A DNA stretch of 42,651 bases from a virus, in the IMG/VR virus record IMGVR_UViG_3300037558_000671, positions 1-42,651 of that record, one strand, 5' to 3'. A program made the position numbers and the translations under genes. The notes below the pieces were generated by a model. It was not told where the DNA came from and made no database searches. It was given only the letters and a program-made list of their open reading frames with translations. Shown here in pieces: positions 7,619 through 38,900 of the stretch (the first letter of the stretch is position 1; every line of letters starts with the position of its first letter).

Positions 7619-9941
7619 GATTGACAGACAAGTCAAGCTTGAGCGTGATCAGATACGACAAGGACTCAAGCAGCTACGAGACGACACAGCCAACCTGGAG
7701 GGCAAACAGTACGCATCAGCTAGTGTGTATGGCGTGGCTTCTATCGAGCAACTCATGCCTCTTGTGGCTGATCGTATCCAAGCCACTGGTGCAGCTATAA
7801 GAGAGCGGCATAACGGCAGGTTATTTAAAGAGAAGATGCTGTACCTTTCAGACATCGAGCCTGAAGCTGCTGCTGCTATTTCTTGCAAGGTCACCTTTGA
7901 CAAAGTGTTCAGCCACAAACCTAAGTCTAGCCTCGTACAAAATGTGACCGACGCAATCGGCACAGCAGTAGAAAACGAGTGTATGATGCGTTACTACGAA
8001 CGTAACGTGCCTGGTTTGTTGAAATACATCAAGGACAACTATTGGCACAAGTCATCTGGTACACATCAAAAGGTGAAAAATGTAATTACTTTGATGAACA
8101 GAGTTGACATCGAACACTGGCAACCTTGGGGTATTCAACTACGAATTAAGCTAGGTGGCTGGTTGTTAGACTGCATCTGCGAATCATCGCAATGGTTCAT
8201 GACACAGCAGCGCCGTGAAGGACGTAAGACCTTCATTGATGTGGTGCCTACACCTGAGTTCATGGTGATCAAGGAGCAGGTGTTAGCCAACGCTGAGCTG
8301 TTTAGCCCGTTGACTTGGCCGATGCTGATCGAACCAAACGACTGGACCAATGAAAACCCTGGTGGCTACTTGCTTAACGAGGTTATGCGTGGCCATCACA
8401 TGGTACGCAGGGGCAAGCCCTGCCTTATACAGGGAGAAACACCGATCGCCTTTCTGAACAAGATTCAGAAGGTAGGATATACTCTCAATAATCACGTAGT
8501 AGATGTCGCAAAAACATTTCAAGAACGTGGTGTTGAAGTTGGTAAGTTTATCCCTGTTGTGGACATGCCTCTACCACCTAAGCCCGTAGACATCGCAAAC
8601 AATGCGGAGTCCCGCAAGGACTACCGTAGGAGGGCTGCAGAGGTATGTAACATAAATGCACAAGCGTTCATGAAGTCATGTCGTACAAGGATGACAATGA
8701 ACGCAGTAAAGATCTTCTCTAAGTATAAGAAGTTCTATATTCCATGGTCGTTTGATTACCGTGGACGTGCTTACCCTATACCTGCATTCTTGACACCCCA
8801 AGATACAGATTTTGGTAAGTCACTACTTAAGTTTCATGAGCAGTCGTTCATGACACCCGAAGCTGAAGCATGGTTAGCCTTCCAGGTCGCCACCACCGCT
8901 GGTCTGGACAAGGCAACCATGCAAGAAAGACAGCAGTGGGTAAAGGACAATCAATCTCTTATAGCTCGTGTCGCAAAGGATCCGATTAGGAACTTAAGTG
9001 ACTGGGATGAGGTTGACGAGCCATGGCAGTTCATGGCAGCATGTGAAGAATACCACGCATGTGTAATGACGTGTACTAGACAGCACACATCCCTGCCAGT
9101 GGCCTCAGACGCTACATGTAGTGGTCTCCAGATACTGGCTGGCCTTGCCAAGGACGCATCTACTGCTAAGCTGGTCAATGTCCTACCATCTGATACACCA
9201 CAAGATGCTTACAAGGTAGTCGCAGAGAAAGCTGCCCCACATGTACCTGATACAATCAGGCCATACATGGACAGAAAAACTGTCAAAAGGGTAGTGATGA
9301 CCGTACCTTACAATGCTAAGCCCTTCTCTAACCGAGGCTACATACGTGAAGCCTTGAAGGAGAAGGGTGTCGAAGTAGAGAAGGGTGACCTAACCACTAC
9401 CGTCAAGGCAGTACGTGATGCTATGGACGTCATTGTCCCTGGCCCCATGGCTGTTATGTCTTGGATCGAGTCAGAGGTCAGCAATGCCATTGACCGTGGT
9501 CTCACAGAACTTACATGGACAACACCATCTGGTTTCTCAGTTACACAACGACTGATGAAACCTGAGATTAAACTTGTTGAATTACAGTTGTTAGGTAGGT
9601 GTCAAATCAAGGTGTCTACAGGTGCAAGCGACAAGGTTGATAAGGCTCACCACAAAAACGCAACAGCCCCCAACCTTATCCATTCACTTGATGCAAGCCT
9701 CCTACACCTATCTGCACTGCGCTTCGACGCACCTATTTCACTAATACACGACTCGGTTCTATGTCGTGCTACTGACATGCCTGTTCTTTCAGACATTGTC
9801 CGTGAAACATACATGCACCTATTTGCGGAGCATGAGTACCTAACAACCTTTGCTCAACAGATTGGCGCAGAGACCGACCCACCGATGTGTAACACACTAG
9901 ATCCTGCATCGGTTATCAATTCCACCTATTTCTTTTGTTAA
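7596..9941 (+). CDS. rpoT: T7-like single-subunit DNA-directed RNA polymerase
   Basis: Phage RNA polymerase that transcribes the replication and late genes. 781 residues, shorter than T7 gp1 (883) mostly in the N-terminal domain. Catalytic residues align well: Asp505 (ASDATCSG, T7 D537), R560-x3-K564-x7-Y572 (T7 R627/K631/Y639, same spacing), and H718-D719-S (T7 HDS, D812). GGAGG lies one base before the ATG, too close for normal initiation, so coupling with the preceding small gene is likely. The coding sequence contains the second copy of the 22-bp repeat (GKPCLIQG, about residue 274-281). Confidence 0.97.
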   Translation: MTIATPFEIDRQVKLERDQIRQGLKQLRDDTANLEGKQYASASVYGVASIEQLMPLVADRIQATGAAIRERHNGRLFKEKMLYLSDIEPEAAAAISCKVTFDKVFSHKPKSSLVQNVTDAIGTAVENECMMRYYERNVPGLLKYIKDNYWHKSSGTHQKVKNVITLMNRVDIEHWQPWGIQLRIKLGGWLLDCICESSQWFMTQQRREGRKTFIDVVPTPEFMVIKEQVLANAELFSPLTWPMLIEPNDWTNENPGGYLLNEVMRGHHMVRRGKPCLIQGETPIAFLNKIQKVGYTLNNHVVDVAKTFQERGVEVGKFIPVVDMPLPPKPVDIANNAESRKDYRRRAAEVCNINAQAFMKSCRTRMTMNAVKIFSKYKKFYIPWSFDYRGRAYPIPAFLTPQDTDFGKSLLKFHEQSFMTPEAEAWLAFQVATTAGLDKATMQERQQWVKDNQSLIARVAKDPIRNLSDWDEVDEPWQFMAACEEYHACVMTCTRQHTSLPVASDATCSGLQILAGLAKDASTAKLVNVLPSDTPQDAYKVVAEKAAPHVPDTIRPYMDRKTVKRVVMTVPYNAKPFSNRGYIREALKEKGVEVEKGDLTTTVKAVRDAMDVIVPGPMAVMSWIESEVSNAIDRGLTELTWTTPSGFSVTQRLMKPEIKLVELQLLGRCQIKVSTGASDKVDKAHHKNATAPNLIHSLDASLLHLSALRFDAPISLIHDSVLCRATDMPVLSDIVRETYMHLFAEHEYLTTFAQQIGAETDPPMCNTLDPASVINSTYFFC
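8413..8434 (+). repeat. 22-bp direct repeat, copy 2 (inside RNA polymerase gene)
   Basis: Exact second copy of 2893-2914, in the same orientation and read here as codons for K-P-C-L-I-Q and flanking residues. One copy is coding and one is not. It probably arose by recombination or capture, or both sites serve the same sequence-specific function. Confidence 0.8.
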
Positions 9942-21747: not shown

Positions 21748-21760
21748 CTAAATAGAATAA

Positions 21761-21784
21761 GGGAGGTGCAATTCCTCCCCTAGC
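21761..21784 (+). repeat. Hairpin repeat A, before psbA
   Basis: GGGAGG (21761-21766), loop TGCAATT, CCTCCC (21774-21779), then CTAGC. It matches 23339-23362 at 22 of 24 bases. The stem is intact in both. There is no U-run, so it is not a simple terminator. The pair brackets the psbA-to-peptide segment. Confidence 0.75.
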
Positions 21785-22931: not shown

Positions 22932-23144
22932 ATGATCGAACTTTTCACCTACTACATTATTGGTGGTGCACTTATTATTGGTGCACCTTCTGTATTTCTA
23001 TTCATCGCCTTTATGCCTGCATTGCAGAACACGAAGGGACGGATGGTTGGATACAAGGATCACAAACTATACGGTGACATCTCATCTTATGAGAATACAC
23101 CAACTGATCAGTCTAAGTTCTACTTAGTATTATCAGATAACTAA
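22932..23144 (+). CDS. 70-residue membrane protein downstream of psbA
   Basis: One or two hydrophobic segments (YYIIGGALIIGAPSVFLFIAF, residues 7-27, written here as ranges) followed by a polar, probably cytoplasmic or lumenal tail with many Tyr, Ser and Asp. Size and the G-A-P-S-V-F-L-F segment recall small photosystem II subunits such as PsbM, but the long polar tail does not, so I do not name it. Starts 3 bases after psbA, so it is co-transcribed with it. Confidence 0.6.
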   Translation: MIELFTYYIIGGALIIGAPSVFLFIAFMPALQNTKGRMVGYKDHKLYGDISSYENTPTDQSKFYLVLSDN

Positions 23145-23146
23145 AA

Positions 23147-23218
23147 GTCCGTTCATCCCGCAAGGGACGCATGACATGAGGTGACATGGAACGGGGTCCC
23201 TCAGTTCTCTATTGGAGG
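23147..23218 (+). promoter_or_regulatory. Candidate glutamine-II (Downstream-peptide) riboswitch
   Basis: The outer stem CCGTTC (23149-23154) pairs with GAACGG (23189-23194). Inside it is a CCC-GCAA-GGG hairpin (23157-23166), then GACGCATGACATGAGG and TGACATGG, where CATG repeats can pair. This is the arrangement I recall for the Downstream-peptide motif, now known as the glutamine-II riboswitch, found in cyanobacteria and their phages. A CCTC (23199-23202) after the aptamer can pair with GAGG of the ribosome-binding site GGAGG (23214-23218), which gives a plausible way to control translation. A 33-codon ORF begins 4 bases after GGAGG, as expected for this class. Confidence 0.75.
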
Positions 23219-23222
23219 ATAT

Positions 23223-23324
23223 ATGCCAAACGTTGAATTACGTCAGCGTGTGCGTGAGCAAGCCCAAGCTCTTAAAGAGCAGAAGCTTGTCTATCGCGGT
23301 GTGGCTTACCTTAAAAGCCGCTAA
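23223..23324 (+). CDS. 33-residue peptide under riboswitch control
   Basis: Short ORF with a perfect GGAGG. The first 20 residues are a charged helix (VELRQRVREQAQALKEQ), then KLVYRGVAYLKSR. The Y-R-G-V-x-Y ending is a motif seen in small cyanobacterial proteins (DUF4278-like) and, as I recall, in peptides downstream of this riboswitch. In cyanobacteria glutamine riboswitches control small proteins that tune glutamine synthetase, so a role in nitrogen assimilation is likely but unproven here. It ends 14 bases before hairpin repeat B. Confidence 0.75.
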   Translation: MPNVELRQRVREQAQALKEQKLVYRGVAYLKSR

Positions 23325-23338
23325 GTAGTTCTGTCATT

Positions 23339-23362
23339 GGGAGGTGCAAATCCTCCCTTAGC
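23339..23362 (+). repeat. Hairpin repeat B, after the psbA-peptide cassette
   Basis: GGGAGG (23339-23344), loop TGCAAAT, CCTCCC (23352-23357), then TTAGC. Differs from repeat A (21761-21784) at two positions, one in the loop and one after the stem. The arm-plus-loop also resembles a tRNA T-arm, but no tRNA can be folded around it. Confidence 0.75.
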
Positions 23363-23366
23363 AATT

Positions 23367-23409
23367 GGCACGAGCCGGGTACGCCCGATACCTCGCGCCG
23401 TCTAGACGG
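23367..23409 (+). other. Structured RNA element upstream of the capsid gene
   Basis: GGCACGAG (23367-23374) pairs with CTCGCGCC (23392-23399) apart from one A-C mismatch, and encloses CGGG-TACG-CCCG (23376-23387). Then CCGTC-TA-GACGG (23398-23409) forms a third, partly overlapping stem. The following 70 bases to the capsid start are A/T-rich with no classical ribosome-binding site. It may stabilise or process the abundant capsid mRNA. Confidence 0.5.
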
Positions 23410-23481
23410 TGGGATAGACCACAAAAATTTTGATCGATCGAATTAAGTACAATATTCATTTTCTTTTTTTAGTACATAACA

Positions 23482-24618
23482 ATGGCACATCAGTCTTCTA
23501 CGCTGACCACTAGCCTTACACGGCAAGGTCAAGCTAACTCTGCGGGTGACGCCCGCGCCCTTTATCTCAAGCTGTTCAGTGGCGAGATGTTCAAAGGGTT
23601 CCAGCATAACGCTATCGCTCGCGATCTTGTTATGAAGCGTACACTTACCAACGGTAAGTCTATGCAGTTCATCTACACTGGCCGCACCACGGCTGAGTAC
23701 CACACGCCCGGTAACGCCATCCTTGGCAACGGCGATGGTGCACCTCCGGTGGCCGAGAAGACCATCACTGTTGATGACCTTCTCATCAGCTCTGCCTTCG
23801 TGTACGAGCTGGACGAAACCCTTGCTCACTACGAGCTGCGCGGCGAGATCTCTAAGAAGATCGGCTACGCACTTGCTGAGAAGTATGACCGTCTAATCTT
23901 CCGTGCTGTCACCCGTGGCGCACGTGCTGCATCACCAATTACTAAGTCCAACTTTGTTGAACCCGGTGGTACTCAAATCCGCGTTGGTGCTACCACCAGT
24001 GCTTCTGATGCTTATAATGCTCAGAAACTGACAACCGCTTTCTTCGACGCCGCTGCTGCGATGGATGAAAAAGGCGTCAGTCAAGAAGGACGTGTGGGTA
24101 TTTTGAACCCCCGTCAATACTATGCTCTCATCCAAGAGGTGGGTAACAATGGTCTGATTAACCGTGACGCCCAAGGCTCTGGTCTGCAAAGCGGACAGGG
24201 CGTTGTGGAGATCGCTGGTATTAAGATCTTCAAGTCCATGAACATCCCGTTCTTCTCTCAGTACGGTACTAAGTTCGGCACCGGTTCTGCTACAAACCCC
24301 GGTACCACTAGCCCTGGCAACCTTGGCTCCTTTGTATCTGCTGCTGTCGAAGACGCTGCTGCCGACGTTACTGGCATCAACAACGAGTACGGTGAAGAAA
24401 CCGAATTCGCTAACTCCTGCGGGCTTATCTTCCAGAAGGAAGCCGCTGGTTGTGTTGAGGCTATCGGCCCACAGGTTCAAGTAACCAGTGGAGATGTATC
24501 CGTGGTTTACCAGGGAGACGTAATCCTCGGGCGACTCGCGATGGGGGCGGACTACCTGAACCCTGCTTGTGCTGTTGAGCTGTACGCTGGTACCGCTACT
24601 GCACCTGCTGCATTCTGA
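23482..24618 (+). CDS. Major capsid protein (T7 gp10-like)
   Basis: 378 residues, HK97-type coat protein forming the icosahedral shell. Typical cyanopodovirus opening (SSTLTTSLTRQGQANSAGD), then ALYLKLFSGEM, GRTTAEYHTPGN, and LAEKYDRLIFRAVTRGARA in the spine-helix region, plus ILNPRQYYALIQE in the later domain. Distinctly GC-rich codons compared with other late genes, as expected for a highly expressed gene. Preceded by the structured leader and followed 15 bases later by a strong terminator, just as T7 gene 10 is followed by its main terminator. Confidence 0.97.
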   Translation: MAHQSSTLTTSLTRQGQANSAGDARALYLKLFSGEMFKGFQHNAIARDLVMKRTLTNGKSMQFIYTGRTTAEYHTPGNAILGNGDGAPPVAEKTITVDDLLISSAFVYELDETLAHYELRGEISKKIGYALAEKYDRLIFRAVTRGARAASPITKSNFVEPGGTQIRVGATTSASDAYNAQKLTTAFFDAAAAMDEKGVSQEGRVGILNPRQYYALIQEVGNNGLINRDAQGSGLQSGQGVVEIAGIKIFKSMNIPFFSQYGTKFGTGSATNPGTTSPGNLGSFVSAAVEDAAADVTGINNEYGEETEFANSCGLIFQKEAAGCVEAIGPQVQVTSGDVSVVYQGDVILGRLAMGADYLNPACAVELYAGTATAPAAF

Positions 24619-34800: not shown

Positions 34801-35820
34801 GGTGCAAGAACAGATCAAATAAGAGTAGGTCCTGTCGGTATTCCTATCAGCTTAATACAAACTCATCATCTTATGCTTAGATTAATGTCTGTTATAGGTG
34901 ATAATGCACACAAGATGGGAACTGAGTGGGTTGATAGTGCACATGTTAAGCTTATTGCTGCACTGGCTGATGCTATTACCAGCAGTTCTATGTTAAGTCA
35001 ATTAAACGACTTAATTGATCTTATTACTTTTCAACCTGATGCTAGTGTTGGACGTGTTATTGCAAGTCAAGTCAATACACAATTTCCTTATGGTGGGTCG
35101 CGGAATGATCTTGGAAACGTGCTAAATCCTTATTTAAAAGAAATTAACGCGGACATTATATCTTCTGTTTTAAACCGTAACAAATTTCTTGGAAGTGTTG
35201 GTGGGGAAAACAATCCGTTTGAGTTACCTGATAAAACAAACATTCTTAACGGTAACAAACTAAATCAACAACCACCTTTTATCAAATTTTTTAACGCTGT
35301 ATCTGCTGTACCTTTAGACCTTAGTAGTGAGTCTAAAGCTTTAGATTTATTGCTAGATTCTAATTACAACATGCGTACGTTGACTTTTAATTCTCCTGAT
35401 GGTATTTCTTTACAGGATAATCCTGACGTTCGAGCTGCATATCAAAAAGCTATCGGTGATTGGAGAGGCAGTAAACCAGGTGAGAGTGGAAAGAGCATTG
35501 AAGAAATATTAAACATGTATGCTGAACGGGAAGAAGTACAAAATTCTATTCGCATGATGAAAACAGAAGTCGGTTATTTAACTAAATTTAACGCTGTGTT
35601 TGGAGATAAAAAAGCTCAACAATTACTTAAACGTGACCCTATGAAGTACACTCACAACAAACTTATTCATAGTTTGTTTAACCGTGCTCGTAACGAGGCT
35701 TGGCAAAGCCTAGGTGACCGTGAAGACGTACAACAACTAGAGGCTGAAGCACAAGACCTTAGAGCAGCAGAATACCAAATGGGATTACTCCAACCCGTCC
35801 TTGACTTTAACAATCCATGA
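31855..35820 (+). CDS. Internal virion protein gp16-like (largest core protein)
   Basis: 1321 residues (T7 gp16 1318). Ejected into the host with the genome and pulling DNA in, by family knowledge. The N-terminus (residues 1-80) is acidic and Pro-rich, and I do not see the lytic transglycosylase motif of T7 gp16. A hydrophobic Gly/Ala stretch near 175-200 (TIGAPMAVTGLGPLAVTGLS) may insert in membrane. The remainder is mostly helical and ends in the tail-fibre overlap (ATGA). A/T-rich codons throughout. Confidence 0.88.
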   Translation: MEQDYSTEDIVEARLNQIDEHLNTETQADEVAVEDLPDLPQVEPAIEPPEDVKVRGAEIAPPENYQPGDVPYHLIGQEPPDKNDVGRQLVESLDKPAEEYGLKENILEGSMALVQGHLTGLRSLTTLKERYEDMLAGENVGGKEYTPEWDPLQNISTPILKSKWGPYLENVAHYSTIGAPMAVTGLGPLAVTGLSAAMSDKSQQADTDLISGLQALMPFLNDVPLIRDLDVEDIDHPLLKTAKHMLQEMGIVFGLNKAIEALFPGNPKLKDLHAAEQADMDRQIGEMAIEQVRVRDLGPTPLGQIAGQGDVPRLPPAEFQGYANKPVAELHQGNASPTGKPSKVLDQLNRIDKENITNGTTDPIFTRAQTRRMANENGMGADEMRDIAQDLMSSERYADLVEEATTARKTVSEVFEPSYRRMQQIIGHDAMKLPPEEYYKLILDDAPMQTGAGPATGNIASISSENVVVTDLVVSHLLKQAQTQAKAAREIMEYADIWAIDGPMTGIRDNIVFGLGQARRARKLASYNLSKLRQKDGPLKFNSPDLTPEEFVRNLDEDFASTRANIDFFFQVVEEMGDPDLNKAIVDIFSSSENTRNWLDLEAYMRKKVRGGDFVVSTKGDLRKKSGALIREMQGVWMNSALNSPKTPQRAMIGTAELTFFRALSRMMGAHARKLVGAGDEAGFDAIEATAEFAAFFEALPDAWKIFASRTKQNYSNGGSYSSRFQRYNKDEFNWDWADKFYSQRGSKADKAWYNTSKAFRWFNSSTKIPALISSYAPRIMGPMDEGWTFVAAKMRSKGLAYRAALEEQARGSLAEITPEVIKRADELYFNKLLDSEGNIDIFKDPYLAKRVQENTLTTPLEGIPKGLQSFMNSHPILGRMMAFATPGFNDIKLNLDNIPLTGAAFGEQKAILKATPENWQETVGRYGIKNLGDLEAAKSDVVGRQIIGTMVAMKYAHDYLQGAASGGGDIDPAQERALRAAGARTDQIRVGPVGIPISLIQTHHLMLRLMSVIGDNAHKMGTEWVDSAHVKLIAALADAITSSSMLSQLNDLIDLITFQPDASVGRVIASQVNTQFPYGGSRNDLGNVLNPYLKEINADIISSVLNRNKFLGSVGGENNPFELPDKTNILNGNKLNQQPPFIKFFNAVSAVPLDLSSESKALDLLLDSNYNMRTLTFNSPDGISLQDNPDVRAAYQKAIGDWRGSKPGESGKSIEEILNMYAEREEVQNSIRMMKTEVGYLTKFNAVFGDKKAQQLLKRDPMKYTHNKLIHSLFNRARNEAWQSLGDREDVQQLEAEAQDLRAAEYQMGLLQPVLDFNNP

Positions 35821-38800
35821 CTATTAGAACTCCAAACAACTCTTACTATGTAAGCGGTGCTTCGGGCGGGCAGAACCACACACTCCCGTTTGGTGCGGAC
35901 CGCTTTGAAGACGACGACCTTTTTGTGTATGTATGGAATGCAGGCACAGAAGCTTGGGACAAAAAAACAGTAACAACCCATTACACTGTTAGCTCAACAC
36001 AGGTATCATTTACTTCTAGCCACATTCCTAGCACGCGGGTCATTGTACTGCGTAAAACTGATGTAGACGAAGATCATCCTAAGTCTGATTTTGTAGCAGG
36101 TGCATCCATCAAAGCACAAGATCTCGACAACAACCAGATCCAAGCATTACGTGGTATTAAAGAACTGCGTGATCAAAAGTTATCGGCAGTTCCATCTATT
36201 GCGGAAGACGGTACTCCGTCAAACCCTAAAATGTATGTCAATCTTGACATGAATGGCTATAAGGTTATTAACCAACCTGCCGGCTATATCACATCAACTG
36301 ACATTTTTGATGGCACCATTGTTACAGCAGATTTAGCAAATAGTTCTGTTACTGATAATAAACTAGCTTCAGACGCAGTAACTACTGACAAGATTAATGA
36401 CGCAGCAGTAACTACTGCAAAGCTGGCAAACAACTCTGTTACCTCAGCCAAGATTGCTGACGGTGGTATTGCTACTGCTGACCTTGCAAATGACGCTGTT
36501 ACCAGTGCCAAGATCGAAGACAATGCAGTCATCGAATCTAAGATTACTAATGGTGCTGTAACAACCAACAAGATTGCTGACAACAATGTCACGACTGCAA
36601 AGATACTTGACGCGAATGTCACCACTGCAAAGATTGCCGATGCGAATGTCACCACCGATAAGGTGGCTGACTCTGCGGTAACTACGGCAAAGATTGCAGG
36701 TGATGCAGTCACCAGCGCAAAGCTGGCTGATTCTGCTGTGACCTCGGCCAAGATTGCTGATGGCACGATCAGCAGTGCTGACATCGGTGATGGTCAGGTG
36801 GCTACGGCCAAGCTGGCTACTGGTTCAGTAATCGAAGCCAAGATTGCTAACGATGCAGTCACGAACTCGAAAATTGCTGCTGGAGCTGTAACTCAGCTTG
36901 AACTGGCTTTGAGTGCTGTCACTACAGATAAGATCGCTGACGATGCGGTTACATCAGCAAAAATTGCTGATGATGCTGTTGTTACTGCTGCTATTGCTGA
37001 TAATGCCATCACTTCTGCACAGATCGCTGCCAACGCTGTTGGGGCTACTGAGTTAGCTAATAATGCAGTCGATGGTCCTGCTATTGCTAACAATGCTGTT
37101 GGTTCTGACAAGATTGTTGACGGCAACATTACTACGGCCAAGCTGGCTACTGGTTCTGTAACCTCCGGTAAGATTGCCAATCTTGGTGTTACTACTGGAA
37201 AGATTGCTAATAACGCTGTAACCGTTGACAAAATCAACGATGGTGAAATTACAGTCGCTAAGATGGATGGTGCTGCTGTTGTTATTAACAGCGAGCAAGC
37301 TGCAAGTACTCCTAACGACACGTCGTTCTTTACGACCTCTGCAAGTGACGGTCGCTACTTCCGACAGGACAGCACTGAGACTATTAGCTCTGGTGTGGCC
37401 TGGTCTGGAAGCGATACGAAAATTGCAACTACTGGAGCCATTGATGCACGTATTGTTGACCTTGTGGAAGAGGTTGGTGGATTCGTTCCTATTGCTAACG
37501 AGACCAGTTTTCCGGCTCTTAACCCTGATGTTAATAACGGTGCAGGTACTATCGTCAGCGTTTCGGCTATTGGTACATCTCGTACTCCTAGCTCGGGATC
37601 AGTCACGATTGCCAACGGAGCAGGATCAGGAAACACAGTAACTATTACTGGTGTTGGTTCTCAGGTGCTTACCGCTGGTTTTGGCATGTTGGTCGAAACA
37701 ACCGGAACACTACATACATATGCGTTCCATCGTCTGTCGGCTCCTGCCACCAACGTAAACACAGTCGCGACAAACATCACCTCGGTTAATACTGCTGCGG
37801 TAAACATCAATAGTGTTGCTAACTTTGCTGATGTCTATCAGGTAAGTGCACAAGACCCCACAACTCGTGGAACTGGCGGAAACGTTGTAGAGGGTGACCT
37901 GTATTACAACACTGCTCAGAACGTCATGAAGGCGTACAACGGTAGTTCGTTTGACAAGATCACTCCTGACGGGTCACAGCTAAATGACATCGCCATTGTT
38001 GCTAATGACATGTCTACTGTCAGTGACTTAGGTTCTGTAGGTGACGCTCTACTGTCTGGTCAGACTGGTGGTGCATTGGAGATTTGTGGAGATAATATCT
38101 CTGATATTCAGGCTGTAGAGAACTCTATTGCTAACGTCAACATTGTTGCCGGTAATACTACCAACGTAAATACTGTTGCTGGTATCTCTGCAAACGTAAC
38201 GACTGTTGCTGGTGTTGCAGCGAATGTAACTACCGTTGCTGGTAATAACTCTAACGTAACTGCCGTAGCTGGTAACGCTACTAACATCAATACTGTTGCT
38301 GGTAATAACGCTAACGTAACTAAGGTTGGTGTTATTGATAGTGATGTCACTGATGTTGCTGCTATCGACAGTAATGTAACTACGGTTGCCGGTATAGCTA
38401 GCAATGTCACTACTGTCGCTGGCGTATCTGCAAATGTCACTACTGTTGCTGGTATTTCTGGCAACGTGACTGCTGTTGCTAACAGTAATGCCAACGTTAC
38501 TACTGTTGCTGGGTCTATCAGTAACGTCAACACGGTTGCGACCGGTATAGCAGACGTAAATCGTTATGCAAATGAATATGTCATTCAAGCCGGTATTCCT
38601 AGCAGCCCGTCTGCTGGCGACCTTTGGTACAACACCAGTGGAAACACGCTGAACTACTACAGCGGTTCAGCCTTTGTGGGCATTGCTCCAGGTATTTCTT
38701 CTGTCTCTAATGACAGCAGCCCTATCCTTGGTGGCAATTTAAACGCAAATAACAGGGACATTACAAATGGGGGTACATTTACTGCTGCCTCGTTTGTTGG

Positions 38801-38900
38801 TGCACTTACTGGCAATTCAACTGGTCTTAGCGGTACTCCGAATATCACTGTCGGAACTGTTGACGGTTCAAATCTTTCTATCGACTTCGGCACTCTCTAA
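35817..38900 (+). CDS. Tail fibre protein (T7 gp17-like N-terminus) with long repeats
   Basis: 1027 residues. Residues 1-130 match the T7 gp17 tail-attachment domain (NNSYYVSGASGGQNHTLPFG, VIVLRKTDVDEDHPKSDF, NNQIQALRGIKELRDQKL). Residues about 170-475 are roughly 30 copies of a decapeptide-like unit of the form A-V-T-T-A-K-I-A-D-x, and about 750-890 hold a second family of N-V-T-T-V-A-G-x-x-A units. Both should form trimeric beta-helix or triple-beta shafts. Between them is a globular part with FFTTSASDGRYFRQDS. The C-terminal tip is short. Overlaps gp16 by ATGA. Confidence 0.92.
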   Translation: MTIRTPNNSYYVSGASGGQNHTLPFGADRFEDDDLFVYVWNAGTEAWDKKTVTTHYTVSSTQVSFTSSHIPSTRVIVLRKTDVDEDHPKSDFVAGASIKAQDLDNNQIQALRGIKELRDQKLSAVPSIAEDGTPSNPKMYVNLDMNGYKVINQPAGYITSTDIFDGTIVTADLANSSVTDNKLASDAVTTDKINDAAVTTAKLANNSVTSAKIADGGIATADLANDAVTSAKIEDNAVIESKITNGAVTTNKIADNNVTTAKILDANVTTAKIADANVTTDKVADSAVTTAKIAGDAVTSAKLADSAVTSAKIADGTISSADIGDGQVATAKLATGSVIEAKIANDAVTNSKIAAGAVTQLELALSAVTTDKIADDAVTSAKIADDAVVTAAIADNAITSAQIAANAVGATELANNAVDGPAIANNAVGSDKIVDGNITTAKLATGSVTSGKIANLGVTTGKIANNAVTVDKINDGEITVAKMDGAAVVINSEQAASTPNDTSFFTTSASDGRYFRQDSTETISSGVAWSGSDTKIATTGAIDARIVDLVEEVGGFVPIANETSFPALNPDVNNGAGTIVSVSAIGTSRTPSSGSVTIANGAGSGNTVTITGVGSQVLTAGFGMLVETTGTLHTYAFHRLSAPATNVNTVATNITSVNTAAVNINSVANFADVYQVSAQDPTTRGTGGNVVEGDLYYNTAQNVMKAYNGSSFDKITPDGSQLNDIAIVANDMSTVSDLGSVGDALLSGQTGGALEICGDNISDIQAVENSIANVNIVAGNTTNVNTVAGISANVTTVAGVAANVTTVAGNNSNVTAVAGNATNINTVAGNNANVTKVGVIDSDVTDVAAIDSNVTTVAGIASNVTTVAGVSANVTTVAGISGNVTAVANSNANVTTVAGSISNVNTVATGIADVNRYANEYVIQAGIPSSPSAGDLWYNTSGNTLNYYSGSAFVGIAPGISSVSNDSSPILGGNLNANNRDITNGGTFTAASFVGALTGNSTGLSGTPNITVGTVDGSNLSIDFGTL

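Follow-up and report, generated by a model that had tools for sequence, protein, structure and literature searches.

The locus at positions 23147 to 23324 of the window (the whole 42,651-nucleotide stretch of viral DNA analyzed here) is likely a translational switch, carried by a phage and turned on by glutamine, that controls a YRG micropeptide with a single repeat; it would be a T7-like cyanophage copy of a picocyanobacterial cassette. The membership of its aptamer in a known riboswitch family, the covariation in the aptamer, the coding character of the small open reading frame (ORF), the conservation of the cassette, and its place ahead of the capsid gene were all computed directly. The features of this region are as follows.

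22932 to 23144: 70-aa ORF (phrog_961) between psbA and the aptamer.
23147 to 23203, + strand: Glutamine-II (type 2; RF01704) riboswitch aptamer (cmscan, 39.9 bits, with the gathering threshold at 33; P1 and P2 covariation among homologous aptamers).
23149 to 23154 and 23189 to 23194, + strand: pseudoknot strands CCGTTC/GAACGG.
23156 to 23159 and 23164 to 23167, + strand: P1, TCCC/GGGA, closed by GCAA.
23177 to 23181 and 23199 to 23203, + strand: part of P2, TGAGG/CCTCA.
23183 to 23185 and 23196 to 23198, + strand: part of P2, GAC/GTC.
23204 to 23222, + strand: leader and putative expression platform (from sequence and folding), with the Shine-Dalgarno (SD) sequence GGAGG at 23214 to 23218 in a predicted hairpin, GTTCTCT/GGAGGAT.
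23223 to 23324, + strand: 33-codon ORF, MPNVELRQRVREQAQALKEQKLVYRGVAYLKSR, a single-repeat YRG (DUF4278-like) micropeptide (97% identical annotated homologue; coding signal across relatives; DUF4278 score of 17.5 bits, below the gathering score of 25.3).
About 23319 to 23423, + strand: conserved structured RNA outside the riboswitch, consisting of a tRNA-like part with a T-loop hairpin and then GGC...GATACC...GCCGTCTAGACGGTGGGATAGACCACA (no credible Rfam match).
23482 to 24618, + strand: major capsid protein, Gp10A-like (Pfam PF21703, 251.7 bits; synteny).

The assignment of the aptamer to the Downstream-peptide/glutamine-II class, proposed in a preliminary description of this DNA, was borne out by an Infernal-type search of the whole window, in which the RF01704 covariance model matched the aptamer with E = 2e-6 and no other Rfam family reached its gathering threshold. 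The glnA (Glutamine-I, type 1) model gave the same aptamer just 16.2 bits, under its gathering score of 35, which makes this a type 2 aptamer, and all elements of the aptamer class are kept in the window copy. The CCC-GCAA-GGG hairpin of the preliminary description corresponds to P1; the CCGTTC/GAACGG pairing is present as well, but it is the pseudoknot of the class and not an “outer stem.”

Both helices are supported by comparison with the aptamers of relatives, where compensatory changes involving both partners are seen at all 4 positions of P1 and all 7 positions of P2. Every one of the 136 fully parsed aptamers can form an uninterrupted run of 5 or more P2 pairs, compared with ~56/136 when partners are swapped. 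The pseudoknot strands CGUUC/GAACG are invariant among the parsed aptamers and, as the parser demanded these strands, this invariance is uninformative with respect to pseudoknot pairing. Among the 174 distinct YRG loci whose upstream sequence is long enough to judge, 25 lack the canonical 5' pseudoknot strand (CGTTC), and certain lineages may therefore have weakened or lost their control by glutamine. In these 25 loci, an upstream ORF seems to extend into the 5' half of the aptamer (e.g., in L014, L022, L035, L052, L055, L058, and L087), and GACGCAT, P2, and GGAACGG are retained. By eye, a P1-like hairpin and GTTC or GTTT are still seen in several of the CGTTC-less loci.

The capsid protein or the peptide led to 93 related records, of which 79 are viral contigs and 14 are named phages, and 54 of the 93 contain an aptamer scoring over the cut-off; many of the viral contigs are fragments, so that absences there are uninformative. 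Such aptamers are also found in 7 of 12 additional named phages, and the named T7-like cyanophages with such an aptamer number 17 of 26 in all. Carriers include P-SSP7, P-SSP2, P-SSP3, P-SSP6, P-SSP10, P-GSP1, NATL1A-7, and NATL2A-133, as well as SS120-1, S-RIP2, S-TIP37, S-TIP28, S-CBP1, and S-CBP4. S-SBP1 and S-CBP3 have weak matches below the cut-off, and no aptamer at or near the cut-off was found in Syn5, P60, 7B11-B, S-CBP2, S-CBP42, S-B28, or S-SRP01.

To describe the neighborhood of the aptamer, the viral collection was searched with a pattern derived from the aptamer core alone, so that neither capsid, psbA, nor peptide entered into the selection. Among the matches listed, the major capsid gene lies at most 1.6 kb downstream in 73 of the 76 loci with enough sequence, and psbA at most 1.5 kb upstream in 37 of 59. 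The distance from the aptamer to the capsid gene varies from ~240 to 1540 nt. When both sets are taken together, the aptamer is followed by an ORF of 13 to 43 residues with a YRG-like motif (recognized by script) in 169 of the 173 distinct aptamers among the matches listed. The remaining four look like cut or boundary cases: L299 and L328 stop at the sequence end, and in L272 and L330 the YRG codons lie right at the limit of the segment that was read. For two entries among the 169 (L238 and L280), the first ORF was in the wrong frame; on re-reading, L238 yielded a proper YRG peptide.

These counts rule out psbA as a constant partner. The near-constant neighbors are the peptide and the major capsid gene, and the link to psbA suggested in the preliminary description is incidental. 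That the cassette lies “next to psbA” is correct insofar as psbA is upstream, but in this genome the 70-aa ORF stands in between. This ORF has ~70 to 77% DNA identity to genes in many large (T4-like size) cyanophages, and the window is alone among the loci examined in having it at this place. MedDCM-OCT-S45-C4, which is the closest annotated relative, has the aptamer directly after psbA.

Pfam supports both psbA and the Gp10A-like capsid gene in the window, whose ORFs are presumably arranged in the order T7-type RNA polymerase, primase/helicase, portal, scaffold, psbA, major capsid, and tail tube proteins. This is a T7-like cyanophage gene order. Elsewhere in the window, a 26-nt repeat, GCAAGCCCTGCCTTATACAGGG(G/A)GAA, is found at 2893 to 2918 and 8413 to 8438 (96% identical), with one copy inside the RNA polymerase gene. 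Two different arrays of 30-nt periodic, decapeptide-like repeats (36376 to 37245 and 38102 to 38542) are located within a 1027-aa ORF at 35817 to 38900. The sequence GGTGGGATAGACCACA was considered as a repeated phage promoter and rejected, having a single occurrence in the window.

The second conserved RNA, between the peptide and the capsid gene, could not be equated with a known one, as Rfam yielded no credible match and ARAGORN detected no tRNA or tmRNA in the window. Its second part is near-invariant. A total of 201 distinct records contain the signature GACGGTGG..GACCAC, and in 196 of them the capsid gene is downstream, starting 66 to 126 nt from the element in 195 records and 999 nt in one; the other five records end too soon. 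An alignment of 24 sequences contains 6 pairs with changes on both sides. The first part is a T-loop hairpin in many relatives (with TGCRANT or TTCRANT loops) and is different in others; in NATL1A-7, a full tRNA-Gly occupies its position, directly 5' of the second part. An outer stem of at least 5 pairs is seen in the first part of 60 of 83 sequences, compared with 33.5 of 83 in the swapped-partner control, and at six pairs there is no excess over that control (18 versus 19.2 of 83). We suspect that the element may be processed by tRNA-maturation enzymes. Another copy of the T-loop hairpin, GGGAGGTGCAATTCCTCCCCTAGC, is found at 21751 to 21784, right after the stop codon of an outer-membrane-like ORF and ahead of psbA.

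The GGAGG and the 33-codon ORF that the preliminary description had placed after the aptamer were both recovered, with the ATG at position 23223. The ORF can be considered real because MedDCM-OCT-S45-C4 has an annotated 33-aa protein in the same place that is 97% identical to the window peptide and because the family shows a codon-position bias, with 1584, 1608, and 3612 differences at positions 1, 2, and 3, respectively, in 575 non-independent pairs. In the same non-independent pairs, the pN/pS ratio of ~0.35 points to purifying selection on the YRG ORFs. The Y-R-G-V-x-Y motif noticed earlier takes the form YRGVAY in the window peptide. A Tyr at +5 from the YRG Tyr is present in 113/113 unique phage peptides, which also all have Leu, Tyr, or Phe at −2 and usually a Lys or Arg at +7; Y-R-G itself was in effect demanded by the search that gave these peptides. 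The phage peptides have a single YRG repeat, in a total length of 13 to 43 residues. As a background, the 9843 small ORFs in these sequences include 56 with the YRG..Y motif. In 45 cases the aptamer core immediately precedes the ORF, and the remaining 11 proved, when inspected, to be extended or sequence-cut forms, so that each of the 56 is a cassette peptide or an upstream extension of one. The P-SSP7 peptide, MKVTFVYRGVAYTRVIG, is unannotated in the P-SSP7 record (AY939843.2), in which the homologous RNA lies from 20515 on. DUF4278 (PF14105) was the only Pfam domain that matched the window peptide, in a subthreshold alignment confined to the last 24 of its 57 positions, and all phage peptides tested fall below its gathering score.

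The ORF starts 19 nt downstream of the aptamer. The preliminary description had proposed that CCTC masks the ribosome-binding site; the 4 bp in question are possible but not favored, as folding of the window places the SD sequence in a stronger local hairpin formed by 23204 to 23210 and 23214 to 23220. In window-type leaders, the SD sequence is paired in the free and the simulated bound state alike, so that this secondary-structure folding, done with a program that models no pseudoknots, does not explain switching for such leaders. With the same pseudoknot-free folding, SD accessibility in the bound state compared with the free state showed a gain of >0.1 in 22 of 93 SD-bearing relatives and a loss in 2. 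Pairing of the P2 3' strand with the leader was rejected as a general OFF state, since the observed pairing was below that in shuffles; the pairing counted in folding is with the coding region. In the short-peptide class (77 sequences, related), pairing of the leader with the coding sequence amounts to 0.59 versus 0.45 in synonymous variants, and the unpaired fraction of the SD sequence to 0.31 versus 0.41. Coding-sequence pairing as the OFF state is thus backed for the short-peptide class alone; the long class, which includes the window, shows no such support, and this difference in the folding models suggests that there may be two kinds of expression platform among the phage copies.

Published work covered in a review (PMC6316151) shows that type 2 aptamers bind glutamine and that one from Prochlorococcus activates expression, and the crystal-structure paper proposes that a ligand-stabilized pseudoknot frees the ribosome-binding site (PMC6698751). 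The phage aptamer would be expected to bind glutamine as well, and by analogy with the published Prochlorococcus relative, as described in the same review, the phage switch would work in the ON direction.

Host picocyanobacteria encode 1 to 9 aptamer matches per genome, with scores of up to 74.8, as opposed to 39.9 in the window. In one Prochlorococcus group, all 41 of the 41 genomes have aptamers over the cut-off, as do 61 of the 101 genomes sampled across the family. The host peptides at the loci that were read mostly contain two or three YRG repeats, as in the 33-aa MSLTYRGLKYNQHKAVVEKQHVQLTYRGKSYQS, and the two that were tested pass the DUF4278 cut-off with 39.0 and 42.9 bits. A search of the phage records with the host two-repeat peptide gave no match. 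Its length and motif suggest that the double-repeat host peptide is the Yfr6 peptide (33 aa; PMC1242208 and PMC2518516). Phage-type copies L341 and L344, in single-cell Prochlorococcus assemblies, adjoin phage psbA and capsid genes and are therefore viral. Loci L184 and L185, likewise from Prochlorococcus single-cell assemblies, have phage psbA, portal, and capsid genes aboard and represent cyanophage contigs filed as host. A host Prochlorococcus aptamer subtype (L404 to L411), close to the crystallized RS01, precedes an unrelated conserved peptide, MNNLALTKKRIKKAERLHAAQ..., which has no YRG. The possibility that the crystallized aptamer itself (Prochlorococcus RS01; PMC6698751) is phage derived, raised by its GACGCATG, was rejected, as it had no match in viral contigs or phage records; close RS01 variants sit in host genomes, upstream of the different, non-YRG peptide.

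The window locus shares with the type 2 glutamine riboswitches (Downstream-peptide, RF01704) of Prochlorococcus and marine Synechococcus, including yfr6, the P1 helix, the pseudoknot, P2, the conserved core, and a short YRG ORF downstream. It differs from the host copies in being carried by a T7-like phage, in a cassette ahead of the major capsid gene. Further differences lie in the joining region, which is GACGCATG in most phage copies in contrast to the common host CGCAGTTCGA, in the single YRG repeat compared with two or three in the host peptides, and in the coding sequence, which appears to be paired with the leader in the short-peptide phage relatives. A phage occurrence of the glutamine-II motif was noted early. 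The paper in which the motif was discovered appeared in 2010 (PMC2864571), and type 2 glutamine riboswitches have been described as apparently confined to marine picocyanobacteria (PMC6316151). Other papers mention glutamine riboswitches in T4-like cyanophages (PMC9602691 and PMC9964418) and in marine myophages (PMC9004378); the claim in the preliminary description that few phages are known to sense glutamine therefore needs to be toned down. These phages resemble the T7-like ones in carrying a glutamine aptamer, but where the motif is specified (for S-CREM1 and Melnitz), it is of the glnA type and not the YRG micropeptide cassette of the T7-like phages. The glnA-type riboswitch of Melnitz adjoins a tmRNA. 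The riboswitch class is already known, and we found no description of the YRG cassette in T7-like cyanophages in the open-access literature that was searched. DUF4278, which also forms the N-terminal part of IF17, resembles the phage peptides in its YRG-x-x-Y motif and its association with glutamine riboswitches, in contrast to which the phage peptides, with their 13 to 43 aa and subthreshold scores, fit just the end of the profile.

In the mechanism that we favor, the mRNA upstream of the capsid gene would carry the aptamer, and binding of L-glutamine would fix both P2 and the pseudoknot in place. Ribosomes could then reach the beginning of the small ORF, and the peptide would be made when glutamine is plentiful. 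The peptide would correspond to the host YRG (DUF4278/Yfr6-type) peptides, reduced to one repeat, and, acting as their stand-in, would most likely replace them, or compete with them, in nitrogen-status signaling during infection. The same region could instead be viewed chiefly as a structured 5' or intergenic element for the capsid mRNA (affecting its stability, processing, or timing), with the ORF as a leader peptide that counts more for the act of being translated than for what it encodes. Such a role would fit the position of the major capsid gene in 73 of 76 aptamer-pattern loci among the matches listed and that of the second conserved RNA, 66 to 126 nt ahead of the capsid start in nearly all carriers. 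It is nevertheless unlikely, given the purifying selection on the peptide with its invariant Tyr five residues past the YRG Tyr, the varying distance to the capsid gene, and the occurrence of host cassette copies without one.

That the peptide directly inhibits glutamine synthetase, much as in the “mini regulator” suggested in the preliminary description, is compatible with the riboswitch part of the favored explanation and derives some appeal from IF17, a glutamine synthetase inactivating factor under a glutamine riboswitch in Synechocystis (PMC6316151). However, the N-terminal part of IF17 is reported to be dispensable for its function, and full-length IF homologues are reported to be lacking in marine picocyanobacteria (PMC6316151). 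The likeness of the phage peptide to DUF4278 is, moreover, below threshold and limited to less than half of the profile, which makes direct inhibition quite improbable; mimicry of host YRG peptides is the more economical explanation. We consider it very improbable that the aptamer is a decaying remnant acquired from a host, with glutamine sensing lost and the peptide produced constitutively: although 5' halves are degenerate in 25/174 relatives and the window aptamer scores below the host copies, compensatory variation in P1 and P2 is strong and every aptamer element is intact in the window.

The association of the aptamer with the peptide in many related viruses, beside the capsid gene, indicates that, with the favored switch, the carrier viruses probably read the nitrogen state of the host during infection. 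More speculatively, T7-like marine cyanophages, including P-SSP7, might use their own glutamine switch and a one-repeat Yfr6/DUF4278 mimic to hijack host nitrogen signaling, a pathway over which phage and host would themselves be in conflict during infection. When Prochlorococcus MED4 is infected by phage, two antisense RNAs are induced early: Yfr14, located opposite Yfr6, and one directed against another gene similar to the Yfr6 peptide (PMC2518516); the relation of Yfr14 induction to the phage YRG peptide is one of correlation only. The P-SSP7/MED4 pair is a system in which the role of the YRG peptide is directly testable. If the favored explanation is true, phages of major ocean primary producers would gauge the nitrogen status of their hosts during infection, through a widespread T7-like cyanophage copy of the switch, coupled with a conserved phage peptide that is among the smallest of its kind.
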